Virus record (IMG/VR): IMGVR_UViG_3300031787_000001
Coordinates: 62,001-126,000 of that record
Reading direction: 5' to 3' (one strand)
DNA length: 64,000 nucleotides
Origin: a virus
Shown here piece after piece: positions 19,744-29,733 of the stretch. The notes under the pieces are model-generated. The model did not search any database. It saw only the letters and a program-made list of their open reading frames with translations, and was not told the DNA's origin. Each line of letters begins with the position of its first letter. Positions within the stretch are counted from its first letter, which is position 1. The translations under genes and the position numbers were made by a program.

Positions 19744-19832
19744 GCCCCGGTGGTGGAACAGGTAGACACGCAGGACTTAAAATCCTGTGGACCGAAACGT
19801 CCGTGCGGGTTCGATTCCCGCCTGGGGCACCA
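19744..19832 (+). tRNA. tRNA-Leu (UAA)
   Basis: Class II tRNA. Acceptor GCCCCGG/CTGGGGC, anticodon loop CTTAAAA in a CAGGA/TCCTG stem, normal T-loop TTCGATT. CCA is encoded. First gene after the promoter/boxA leader. Confidence 0.95.
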
Positions 19833-20262
19833 ATACTATCGTTCTTTGACATATAAGGAGAAACAAATTATGGAAATACTTTTCTTTATTTTAGGAATTA
19901 CTTCCGTGGTGGTTATTGCGACCGCAATAGTTGCTGTGGTAAGTATTGTTAAGGTAACAAAGTTACAAACAAAAGTTAAAGATGGTTTTGATGGTGTTTA
20001 TCATTCAATTGATAATACACATACTTCCATCGATAACACAAAAAGAGATACTCACGATAACATCGGAAGATTAAATGAAGAAGTTAATCGTAGAGTTGAT
20101 AACCTCGAAAGAGAAACCTTCTCACAGTTAGATTCTCGATTAGATAAGTTGGAAACGAAGTTAAAAACTTACGTTCACACTAATGCAACCATGATGAAAC
20201 TTGCATTAGATACACATAAAGCAACATCAAAATAAAATAAAAGTCAAAAGAACGATAGTATT
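19832..20262. repeat. Inverted repeat enclosing a small gene
   Basis: AATACTATCGTTCTTTGAC (19832-19850) is repeated inverted as GTCAAAAGAACGATAGTATT (20243-20262) with one extra A. The transcript could form a 19-bp stem around the small membrane-protein ORF, similar to RNase III processing stems in rRNA operons. The left arm includes a second boxA-like GTTCTTTGACAT. Confidence 0.75.
19870..20235 (+). CDS. Small membrane-anchored coiled-coil protein
   Basis: A 121-residue protein. The ATG at 19870 is chosen because AAGGAG lies 9 nt upstream, one of the few clear Shine-Dalgarno sites in the window; the longer ORF upstream runs through tRNA-Leu. Residues 3-29 form one transmembrane segment (LFFILGITSVVVIATAIVAV). 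The rest is a soluble coiled coil with heptads (RLNEEVNRRVDNLERETFSQ). It resembles spanin-like or envelope-tethered proteins in shape only. It is transcribed with tRNA-Leu and enclosed by an inverted repeat. Confidence 0.82.
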   Translation: MEILFFILGITSVVVIATAIVAVVSIVKVTKLQTKVKDGFDGVYHSIDNTHTSIDNTKRDTHDNIGRLNEEVNRRVDNLERETFSQLDSRLDKLETKLKTYVHTNATMMKLALDTHKATSK

Positions 20263-26869: not shown

Positions 26870-26917
26870 TTGTATTTTAAAAAAGTATTTATATCTTTGT
26901 AAAAGTTCTTTAAACAT
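26870..26917 (+). promoter_or_regulatory. Promoter plus boxA-like leader of the initiator tRNA
   Basis: TTG (26870-26872), 19-nt spacer, TATCTTTG (26892-26899), then GTTCTTTAAACAT (26905-26917) abutting the first base of tRNA-fMet. Confidence 0.8.
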
Positions 26918-26989
26918 CGTGGCGTGGAGAAGTGGTATCTCACTAGGCTCATAACCTAGGGACCGTTGGTTCGAATCCAACCGCCGCAA
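26918..26989 (+). tRNA. Initiator tRNA-fMet (CAU)
   Basis: The first acceptor pair is the C1xA72 mismatch that marks bacterial initiators (CGTGGCG/CGCCGCA), and the D-stem has the initiator A11-U24 pair. Anticodon loop CTCATAA in CTAGG/CCTAG; only two G-C pairs stack on the loop rather than the usual three. Sequence closely follows E. coli tRNA-fMet in the D-arm (TGGAG...). Discriminator A followed by CA. Confidence 0.93.
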
Positions 26990-27010
26990 CAAAAAAGTTT
27001 TAAAAAGATT

Positions 27011-27040
27011 TTGTTTTTTGAAAAACTCTTTTTATATTTG
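27011..27040 (+). promoter_or_regulatory. Bacteroidota-type promoter upstream of the large RNA
   Basis: TTG (27011-27013), 19-nt spacer, TATATTTG (27033-27040), followed by GTTCTT at 27071-27076. Confidence 0.7.
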
Positions 27041-27098
27041 TAAAACAATTCGGTAATACACACCGAAAAAGTTCTTAAAAAAAAAGTTTGACAAAAAT

Positions 27099-27160
27099 TT
27101 GGAAAGTTGAAAAACACTTCTTATCTTTGTAAAACAATCGGAAACGATAAAGTTCTTTGA
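27099..27160 (+). promoter_or_regulatory. Second promoter plus boxA-like leader of the large RNA
   Basis: TTG (27099-27101), 20-nt spacer, TATCTTTG (27122-27129), then GTTCTTTGA (27152-27160). Tandem with the promoter at 27011, as in strong rRNA promoters. Confidence 0.75.
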
Positions 27161-28060
27161 AAATATTGGGCGGTCTATAGTCCATAAAATAAACCATGAA
27201 AGTGGTATAAAGTGGAATACCTTGGTTTTGGTATTCTGCGGCTTGGGTAACCGAGCTCGAGTAGACAAACGAGATATCGTCTGACCTTTAGTACTGAGGG
27301 TAACACTGTAGGGAAAGTGGTTGGGCGATCAAGCGATGTGGGTCGTTTGGTTGAGGTGGGAACACCAATAAGAATAACTCGTAGAATTATTGCAAGAAAT
27401 GTTGTTATCCGACTTCATAATTGCGTTTTTCAATATTATGGTTGTCTTAAAACCGAAAGGTATGTTAGTGTACAGGTGGTGCTGTTATTAACCTTAACCT
27501 TAGCCTACCAAGGCATGAGTTATGAAGATGAGCAAAAATATGGAGGTGGGGACATCTCAGAGGGTAGTTTAGTATTTAGCCGTTCAAAAGATGGCTGAGC
27601 TGGTGACGAACCACTACCTTCACAATCCACAAACCAATAACTTGCATCCATTTAATTGCAAAATTAATAAATCAAGGAAAAGTGTTCGTCAGTTGTGGAT
27701 GACAGGTCACTACATAGTCATGAGTTGTTCATGGCCATGAAGGGTCCCAAGCCCAACATGATTTTCACCAAAGTTCTCTAATCTCGCAAGGATTAATTGG
27801 GGTGGCAACCTCGAAGAGTGATGAGTAATGAGAGAGTGATTCACAACTTAAGGATTGGTTAATCTAATTGACCGTGACTGATTATTACTACTCAAAAGGT
27901 AGTGGATAAGGGAAGAATCAATAATGTCCCAAAGATAATCACCCGAACGTGTAATCTCAGCGTTTTATTTTCCTGATTTTTATAAAATCATGGTGGTGGA
28001 GTAATAAAAAGATTTCATGCCGCAAGGCCCCAAAGGTTAGATTTTTCTAACCTTTTTTTG
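27136..28060 (+). ncRNA. Large structured non-coding RNA (about 0.9 kb), GOLLD/ROOL-like by context
   Basis: A stretch with no credible gene, bounded by two tandem promoters and a terminator. Many local helices can be drawn: GAATACC/GGTATTC (27220s), ATCCACAA/TTGTGGAT (about 27622-27705), TTCATGGCCATGAA, TAATC/GATTA, GGTTAAT-CTA-ATTGACC, ACTAC/GTAGT and TGATTTT/AAAATCA. GC is clearly above flanking genes. The 93-codon ORF inside (27317-27598) looks like chance. It is not rRNA, RNase P RNA, a group I or a group II intron by recognised core motifs. GOLLD and ROOL are huge ornate RNAs found beside phage tRNAs, so this is a candidate member or a new class. Confidence 0.65.
28032..28059 (+). terminator. 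Terminator of the large RNA
   Basis: AAAGGTTAG/CTAACCTTT stem with an ATTTTT loop and a T run. Confidence 0.88.
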
Positions 28061-28075
28061 TTTTTATATTTTTTT

Positions 28076-28083
28076 TATTTATA
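28076..28083 (+). promoter_or_regulatory. TATTTATA start-proximal motif
   Basis: TATTTATA 8 nt before the phosphoesterase ATG. Confidence 0.45.
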
Positions 28084-28091
28084 TTATACCT

Positions 28092-28844
28092 ATGAGATTA
28101 ATTTGTATATCAGACACACATTCTTTACATGAAAGAATGACACATAAAGTTGAAAAATATATCGATCCTGATCAAGACAATATACTCATCCATGCGGGGG
28201 ATTGTACTAATATGGGTAGAGAACCTGAAATTATTGAATTTGTTTATTGGTATCAAAATTTAAAAGGATTTGATACCAAGATCTTTATTGCGGGTAATCA
28301 TGATTTTGGTTTTGAACATTATAATGGTCTTCGTCATAGTAATGAGGCACCTTGGTTACATCATATAATAAATGAGGAGAATTTATCTCAATCAGATGTC
28401 GTTTATCTTCATGATTCTGAATTTGTAATTGAACATCCGAAATTTTCAAGACCAATTAAATTTTATGGAAGTCCTTGGCAACCTGAATTTTATAATTGGG
28501 CATTTAATCTTCCAAGAAATGGTTGGGAGTTAGAACTTAAATGGAAAGAAATACCAGATGATACTGATATATTGATCACACACGGACCTCCACATGGTTG
28601 TAGAGATTTTACACCACAAAATTTACAAGTTGGTTGTGAATTGTTGAGATATAGATTAGATACATTAAAACCACTTGTCCATGTGTTTGGACATATTCAT
28701 CATGCATATGGTGGTGCATATATTGATGATGTTTTATACATTAACGCATCAACATGTACAGAAAGATATGTCCCACGTAATAGACCTATTGTTGTTGATT
28801 TAAAAGAAGAAGATGGTAAAATAGTTACTACCTATATTGATTAA
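28092..28844 (+). CDS. Calcineurin-like metallophosphoesterase
   Basis: A 250-residue enzyme with the complete metallophosphoesterase motif set: CISDTHS (4-10), HAGDCT (34-39), AGNHDFG (66-72), THGPPHGC (around 164-171) and FGHIHHAYG (around 197-205), which bind two metals. The layout is closest to the MPPED/YkuE-like branch. The substrate could be a nucleotide, a cyclic nucleotide or a nucleic-acid end; nothing here decides. A monocistronic gene just after the large RNA. Confidence 0.92.
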   Translation: MRLICISDTHSLHERMTHKVEKYIDPDQDNILIHAGDCTNMGREPEIIEFVYWYQNLKGFDTKIFIAGNHDFGFEHYNGLRHSNEAPWLHHIINEENLSQSDVVYLHDSEFVIEHPKFSRPIKFYGSPWQPEFYNWAFNLPRNGWELELKWKEIPDDTDILITHGPPHGCRDFTPQNLQVGCELLRYRLDTLKPLVHVFGHIHHAYGGAYIDDVLYINASTCTERYVPRNRPIVVDLKEEDGKIVTTYID

Positions 28845-28863
28845 GTTTTTCATTTTTATATGA

Positions 28864-28871
28864 TATTTATA
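28864..28871 (+). promoter_or_regulatory. TATTTATA start-proximal motif
   Basis: TATTTATA 14 nt before the ATG of the small AT-hook-like protein. Confidence 0.45.
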
Positions 28872-28885
28872 TATAAACAATATCT

Positions 28886-29086
28886 ATGAAAAATATAATT
28901 GATTTTTTAAAAAACCTATTAACAAAAAAATCTGAAGAAGTTATTTCAGAAATAAAACAAAAGGTTGTATCTGAAATAAAGGGTGAACCTGAGAAAGTAG
29001 AAGAACCTGTTAAGGTTGAGGAACCAAAAGAAGAAATCGTCGAAGAAAAACCCAAAAAAAGAGGTAGAAAGAAAAAGGTAGATTAA
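28886..29086 (+). CDS. Small charged protein with AT-hook-like tail
   Basis: A 66-residue protein: an amphipathic N-terminal helix (MKNIIDFLKNLLTKKSEEVI), a Glu/Val/Pro-rich linker (EPEKVEEPVKVEEPKEE) and a basic end KPKKRGRKKKVD resembling an AT-hook (RGRKKK). It may bind AT-rich DNA or RNA. Followed by a terminator. Confidence 0.75.
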   Translation: MKNIIDFLKNLLTKKSEEVISEIKQKVVSEIKGEPEKVEEPVKVEEPKEEIVEEKPKKRGRKKKVD

Positions 29087-29107
29087 TAAAAAAAATAAAA
29101 GATAAAT

Positions 29108-29137
29108 TGGGTTAAATTTTTATTTAACCCTTTTTTT
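29108..29137 (+). terminator. Rho-independent terminator
   Basis: GGGTTAAAT/ATTTAACCC stem followed by seven T, which overlap the tmRNA promoter region. Confidence 0.85.
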
Positions 29138-29140
29138 GTC

Positions 29141-29163
29141 TATATTTGTGAAAGTTCTTTAAA
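29141..29163 (+). promoter_or_regulatory. tmRNA promoter -7 element and boxA-like leader
   Basis: TATATTTG (29141-29148) with GTTCTTTAAA (29154-29163) 4 nt before the mature tmRNA. The -33 TTG is not clear. Confidence 0.6.
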
Positions 29164-29167
29164 ATAT

Positions 29168-29560
29168 GGGGGTGTCCAGGTATTGATTGGCGTTTATATG
29201 GTAAATGGGCACGTAGTCAGATGTCATCTATGACTTAAATCTACGGTGGTAAAAATCAAACGGCAACGTTTACAACAACATGGAAATTGCAGGTATCCTT
29301 GCAACTTCTAAAGTAGCTGCTTAATAAGTACCTACTGTCGGGTCGGTTAGGACATATAACCCAGGAACAGAAGTCCGTTATACGGGTCACAGGTCAGAGC
29401 TCGTTTAAAATAATTCTGAGACCAAGTTGTTTGTAGGTAGGTTTCTCACATATATCAAACCTAATATTTTGGAACATTGAGAACCAATGTTATACTAAAC
29501 GTGTAGTCCATCTATTGTATGGCGAACAAGACAAGGGTTCGATTCCCTTCACCTCCACCA
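29168..29560 (+). ncRNA. ssrA: tmRNA
   Basis: A 393-nt transfer-messenger RNA for ribosome rescue. The ends form a tRNA-like domain: GGGGGTG/CACCTCC acceptor with G3-U70 (alanine identity), T-arm with TTCGATT, and encoded CCA. An internal ORF at 29262-29127+ (29262-29321 plus two stops to 29327) reads GNVYNNMEIAGILATSKVAA. The first codon GGC fits Bacteroidota tags, which start with Gly, but the tag is about twice as long as typical ones in that group and ends VAA, not LAA. The C-terminal hydrophobic-Ala-Ala is the usual protease signal. The resume codon is inferred. A terminator follows. Confidence 0.9.
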
Positions 29561-29566
29561 AAAATT

Positions 29567-29593
29567 AAACCCATCGAATTCGATGGGTTTTTT
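29567..29593 (+). terminator. tmRNA terminator
   Basis: AAACCCATCGAA/TTCGATGGGTTT perfect hairpin followed by T run. Confidence 0.88.
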
Positions 29594-29733
29594 ATTTATA
29601 ATAACTGAGGTTTATAAACGAACAAAGAGGTCTTTAGGACCCCTTTGTCGAGATTTGGAATACCCCCTTTCGTTTTTTTCGAGTTATCATCTAATGGCGA
29701 CCAAACCATTAAACTCTAATATAAATATCTAAT
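29594..29733. other. Intergenic region between convergent units
   Basis: No gene. Contains a CAAAG-AGGTC-TTTA-GGACC-CCTTTG-type hairpin (about 29625-29650) that may terminate minus-strand transcription, and a TATTTATA (minus-strand reading) at 29720-29727 that does not precede any recognised minus-strand gene. Confidence 0.5.

Follow-up and report, generated by a model that had tools for sequence, protein, structure and literature searches.

Positions 27168–27971 (+ strand) of the window, the 64,000-nucleotide stretch of viral DNA analysed here (bases 62001–126000 of a 286,785-bp virus record), contain a structured non-coding RNA of approximately 0.8 kb. This RNA is a GOLLD RNA, a known kind of giant phage RNA and not a new class, as concluded from a full-model match, homologues in which the 5′ and 3′ halves occur jointly, covariation and the lack of a shared reading frame. 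The GOLLD family itself was already known; what this analysis adds is a conserved rRNA-type leader element together with conserved cage contacts in the clade to which this RNA belongs. Taken as a whole, it is probable that the virus is a T4-like jumbo phage of Bacteroidota with a GOLLD that would be expressed from host-type promoters, be subject to boxA antitermination and assemble into a cage.

Identification of the RNA as GOLLD

In an Rfam scan of the window, the GOLLD model RF02032 matched positions 27560–27963 (+), the 3′ half of the RNA, with 338.5 bits (E 2.3e-96; cut-off 150 bits), and the match is complete (model positions 1–416 of 416). Since this score lies well above the cut-off over the full model, the 3′ half is not even divergent. 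The Rfam model spans only the 3′ region and leaves the 5′ half unmodelled. GOLLD RNAs also possess a separate, less conserved 5′ region of approximately 400 nt, and such a region was found at 27168–27559 (+), conserved with covariation in the clade. It is the cap domain by comparison with the published cage; full-length homologues occur in viral contigs and nearly all of its helices covary. ROOL is likewise a large, cage-forming phage RNA often located beside tRNAs (PMC12286853), but its covariance model gave no match in the window at the gathering threshold, nor at E ≤ 1 in positions 26900–29700, which rules out this identity.

Two patterns from the 5′ half retrieved about 180 loci from viral contigs; 133 sequences, mostly from metagenomic phage contigs, could be aligned over almost their entire length in a profile search. 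Rfam scanning of 19 loci gave full-model GOLLD matches for 14 and matches cut by the locus end for two, with no match for the remaining three (L058, L134 and L152), probably because these loci end too soon. Given the 133 end-to-end homologues and the 16 of 19 scanned loci assigned to GOLLD, both halves travel together in the clade. The latter count also ruled out a 5′ cap domain joined to a different 3′ domain, an arrangement considered for the many loci lacking TAATCTCAG. A distant DNA search showed the same RNA, including its 5′ half, in the uncultured huge phages LR756502 (642 kb) and LR745206 (635 kb), both of which have full GOLLD matches in Rfam. The only match in a sequenced genome (L182), a candidate prophage copy, lay within a coding gene and arose by chance, and the pattern AAAGGTGTAATCTCAGC matched 20 contigs, none of them GOLLD. 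GOLLD was not found in the Flavobacterium immuto and Microcystis Mel-JY01 phages, and no cultured phage with this GOLLD clade was found in the collection searched.

The single-sequence fold of 27168–27971 has an energy of -236 kcal/mol, compared with -206 kcal/mol in shuffled sequences (z -4.8). Covariation was analysed in an alignment (A1) of 44 non-redundant homologues with a mean identity of about 67%. Their consensus fold comprises 211 pairs, 162 of which show changes on both sides, and 95.4% of pairing cells are paired as opposed to 75.6% in shuffles, none of which reached the observed value for either pairing or both-side changes. Sliding the structure by one to three columns lowers pairing to 37–45%, and a shift of a single column already lowers it to 41–44%. 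Long-range pairs beyond the nested fold covary too. Two further covarying pairs (27339–27340 with 27628–27629) link a hairpin loop of the 5′ region to the 3′ region and are a candidate inter-domain contact. The first helix proposed by RNAalifold (27169–27171 with 27684–27686) is probably wrong; 27685–27690 covaries better with 27605–27610. The GC content is 40.5% in the RNA versus 31.2% in the window, and only 2.8% of 804-nt windows reach such a value.

No reading frame is shared among the homologues, the longest ORF of each measuring 27–126 aa and changing in position, which rules out a hidden protein. That the RNA represents a new class of giant phage RNA, or a decayed gene that has kept structure, has next to no probability: the 5′ half is indeed missing from the Rfam model, but the match covers the full GOLLD model, which excludes a new class, the two halves co-occur in 133 homologues and these have no ORF in common. 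The initial annotation, which proposed a structured non-coding RNA of raised GC content without a credible ORF, is borne out on each of these points, including the absence of a conserved frame and the covariation across homologues that it named as a check. It had left the choice between a divergent Bacteroidota-phage member of GOLLD or ROOL and a new class, to be settled with the Rfam models of both; membership of GOLLD stands, while ROOL, a new class and, for the 3′ half, divergence do not.

Phage, host and transcription signals

The window encodes T4-like head genes (prohead protease, portal and terminase), and the closest annotated relatives of the portal and terminase include Flavobacterium phages. 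ARAGORN identified 23 tRNA genes, with a tRNA-Met (CAT; 26918–26990, +) directly upstream of GOLLD; among the 35 homologous loci that have an upstream tRNA, the closest one is likewise tRNA-Met in 31. A phage tmRNA is located downstream at 29168–29560 (+; RF00023, 86.8 bits), which ARAGORN missed in the window. Its tag was read by hand as GNVYNNMEIAGILATSKVAA, which is unusually long for Bacteroidota.

Bacteroidota-type -7 elements (TANNTTTG) are found at 27033 and 27122, as well as at 26892 ahead of tRNA-Met, and GTTCTT follows each of them. The upstream element of GOLLD (27033–27040, +; TATATTTG), identified by consensus match only, is followed by a weaker boxA-like sequence, GTTCTTAAA, at 27071. 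The proximal element (27122–27129, +; TATCTTTG), with TTTG about 20 nt upstream, is backed by homologous leaders as well as by its consensus match and is likely to be the main promoter. Among homologous leaders, TANNTTTG is present in 49 of 80, versus 12% of random stretches. A sigma-70 scan found no forward-strand promoter. An intrinsic terminator with a perfect 10-bp stem and a T tail lies at 28032–28055 (+). The transcript would probably start near 27135 and end near 28060, with 27168–27971 as the RNA proper. The interval between GOLLD and the terminator (27972–28031) holds a hairpin followed by GTGGTGGA, common to about ten relatives, among which the hairpin changes in sequence and keeps its pairing.

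Several features point to a Bacteroidota host: the -7 elements, the leader motif of rRNA type described below, the kinship with huge phages and the Flavobacterium phages among the portal and terminase relatives. A genome size above 634 kb marks phages predicted to infect Bacteroidetes (PMC7162821), and LR756502 (642 kb) and LR745206 (635 kb) fall into this size class. This evidence agrees with the assignment to a Bacteroidota phage in the initial annotation, and the tandem rRNA-like promoters, the perfect terminator and the position beside tRNA genes that it described were all recovered. In the literature searched, outside which many subscription papers lie, no paper treating GOLLD and Bacteroidetes together was found.

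A boxA-like element in the leader

The predicted transcribed leader of GOLLD contains a boxA-like element, AGTTCTTTGAAAAT (27151–27164, +), recognised from homologous leaders and from 16S leaders of the host phylum. The motif GTTCTTTRA occurs within 150 nt before the RNA in 72 of 80 non-redundant leaders, and those without an exact copy mostly carry near variants (e.g. GATCTTTGA and GTTCTTTGT). By comparison, it was found in none of the 80 reverse strands, in 0.9% of random stretches and at two of 473 long-ORF starts; before the first tRNA of a cluster it is present in 22 of 144 cases. The core GTTCTTT is essentially invariant and is found 15–111 nt ahead of the RNA. Here the motif follows the proximal -7 element by 22 nt, an order kept in homologues (the start site being predicted), in which the distance from the -7 element ranges from 6 to 90 nt and is often 15–35 nt. 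Where the motif lies 48–111 nt upstream (L008, L036, L097 and others), sequences between it and GOLLD could pair into an extra short helix (e.g. ATTATC/GATAAT).

Host-phylum 16S leaders, taken from genomes of the phylum of a Bacteroidaceae genome, contain GTTCTTTRA in 16 of 30 cases and a wider pattern in 27 of 30 (e.g. AGTTCTTTGACAGAGTGAG and GTTCATTGACATATTGG), the random background of the motif in 16S loci being raised (5.8% per 250 nt). The GOLLD-leader motif GTTCTTTGA matches this rRNA-leader motif, which would be the Bacteroidota boxA; boxA of E. coli is GCTCTTTAACA. As in rrn leaders, the motif stands after a promoter and ahead of a stable RNA that is long and untranslated; there this is rRNA, whereas here the putative boxA, assigned by sequence and position, precedes a phage non-coding RNA.

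Within this phage the motif precedes tRNA-Leu (19718), tRNA-Met (GTTCTTTAA at 26905), GOLLD (27152) and the tmRNA (GTTCTTTAA at 29154, together with a -7 element), and a further copy lies at 19841. These account for five of the 20 occurrences in the genome whose surroundings were examined; the other 15 are not accompanied by a structured RNA of Rfam and, by inspection, look coding or incidental. Between tRNA-Leu and tRNA-Arg, a perfect 16-bp inverted repeat (AATACTATCGTTCTTT at 19832–19847 and AAAGAACGATAGTATT at 20247–20262) flanks a small ORF (19870–20235) and resembles a processing stem; one of its arms holds most of a boxA-like motif.

The GOLLD of Acinetobacter phage AM24 (KY000079) resembles the one described here in its full-model match (214.7 bits), similar 5′ start and GGTGGTGCTG motif, but differs in being embedded within the tRNA array and in having no boxA-like element near. 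As LR756502 (L002) also carries GOLLD without a nearby boxA, the element is a feature of the clade and not a requirement of GOLLD everywhere. Vibrio phage ICP1 produces an abundant non-coding RNA of ~0.8 kb (PMC7567579); it was dropped as a comparison, as its locus (L233 10098–11108, -) matched no Rfam family at E ≤ 0.01.

Since the leader motif resembles rrn boxA, GOLLD may be transcribed in the manner of rRNA. Host RNA polymerase would start at the -7 elements, and NusB-S10 and partners would bind the putative boxA (AGUUCUUUGA, GUUCUUUGA) in the nascent leader, giving an rRNA-type antitermination complex. Polymerase modified in this way could escape Rho termination across 0.8 kb of untranslated RNA, and the complex may also help GOLLD to fold. 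For the rrn antitermination complex of E. coli to form, boxA is both necessary and sufficient, and a role as RNA chaperone has been put forward (PMC10250234). It seems somewhat more probable than otherwise that in Bacteroidota phages rRNA-type boxA antitermination governs GOLLD, some tRNAs and tmRNA, the host machinery for ribosome-making transcription producing the RNA cage and perhaps folding it co-transcriptionally.

Two other readings of GTTCTTTRA were weighed. It is unlikely, though the better of the two, that the motif belongs to the GOLLD fold or signals processing, pairing with the RNA tail or marking a maturation cleavage site. Its location 15–111 nt before the RNA would suit such a role, as rRNA leaders serve processing too (PMC10250234), and so would the extra short helix of the group with a distal motif. 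However, GTTCTTT is near-invariant at widely differing distances from the RNA, it is also found ahead of tRNAs and tmRNA, which have no GOLLD tail, and by inspection no covarying partner was seen. It is very unlikely that the motif acts at the DNA level, as a downstream promoter element recognised by RNA polymerase or by a phage sigma factor or activator: the frequent spacing of 15–35 nt past the -7 element would fit, but the full range of 6–90 nt is unlike that of promoter elements and host rRNA leaders carry the same type of motif.

Cage contacts and function

GOLLD RNAs assemble into hollow cages, the structure of GOLLD env-38 being a homo-14-mer (PMC12286853). Expression that rises during lysis is a further trait of the family. 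Loop numbers were assigned here by following the order of the Rfam model together with residue numbers given in the text of PMC12286853, not from the env-38 sequence. A GG at 27676–27677 (+) pairs with 27747–27748 in loop L20 and corresponds to inter-subunit bridge B7 (L20-J13/15), a kissing contact that lies between subunits in the published cage (PMC12286853). Both base pairs are formed in 44 of 44 homologues and covary (GC/CG/AU and GC/UA). Loop L21a (bridge B8) has a self-complementary dinucleotide at 27786–27787 (+) in all 44 homologues: mostly GC, CG in eight, and AU in one of the 44 as well as in one further relative. GC and CG are the states given in PMC12286853, so that this clade, with AU, raises the self-complementary states of this cage contact to three. 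The GC of loop L21b (bridge B9; 27805–27806, +) is present in 43 of 44, the exception being an alignment shift. A variable A/U-rich linker was delimited in alignment A1 at 27622–27675 (+) and holds no inserted tRNA according to ARAGORN; in the published structure the linker is disordered and lies inside the cage (PMC12286853).

By these comparisons, the subunit-contact sites B7, B8 and B9 of the published cage are conserved in the clade, and the RNA would, once transcribed, assemble into a multi-subunit cage as solved for another GOLLD. Covariation by itself does not separate contacts within a chain from those between chains, and a cage for this RNA is predicted from sequence comparison; the RNA might accordingly function uncaged, perhaps as a monomer with a regulatory or decoy role, in which case the conserved loops would make intramolecular contacts. 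This is distinctly unlikely, as a loop pairing with its own copy best accounts for adjacent bases that remain complementary to each other (GC, CG, AU), an argument also made for other GOLLDs (PMC12286853). The GOLLD of this phage shares with env-38 a 5′ region of similar length, the linker, the L20-J13/15 and L21a/L21b sites and an upstream tRNA-Met. It differs in belonging to an uncultured Bacteroidota jumbo phage and in its boxA-like leader; neither boxA nor antitermination is mentioned in the cage paper (PMC12286853).

Given the position of GOLLD amid tRNA and tmRNA genes, the best guess is that the cage may hold or bind translation-related RNA (tRNAs or ribosomes). Work cited in PMC12286853 reports that ribosomes bind GOLLD in pull-downs, and according to a study cited in PMC7567579 the GOLLD of a Lactobacillus brevis prophage is dispensable for phage production. 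The large, coherent clade of Bacteroidota phages adds covariation data for the family, and its boxA-like leader offers a concrete idea of how long untranslated phage RNAs may get transcribed, one that would tie GOLLD to the machinery that makes rRNA.
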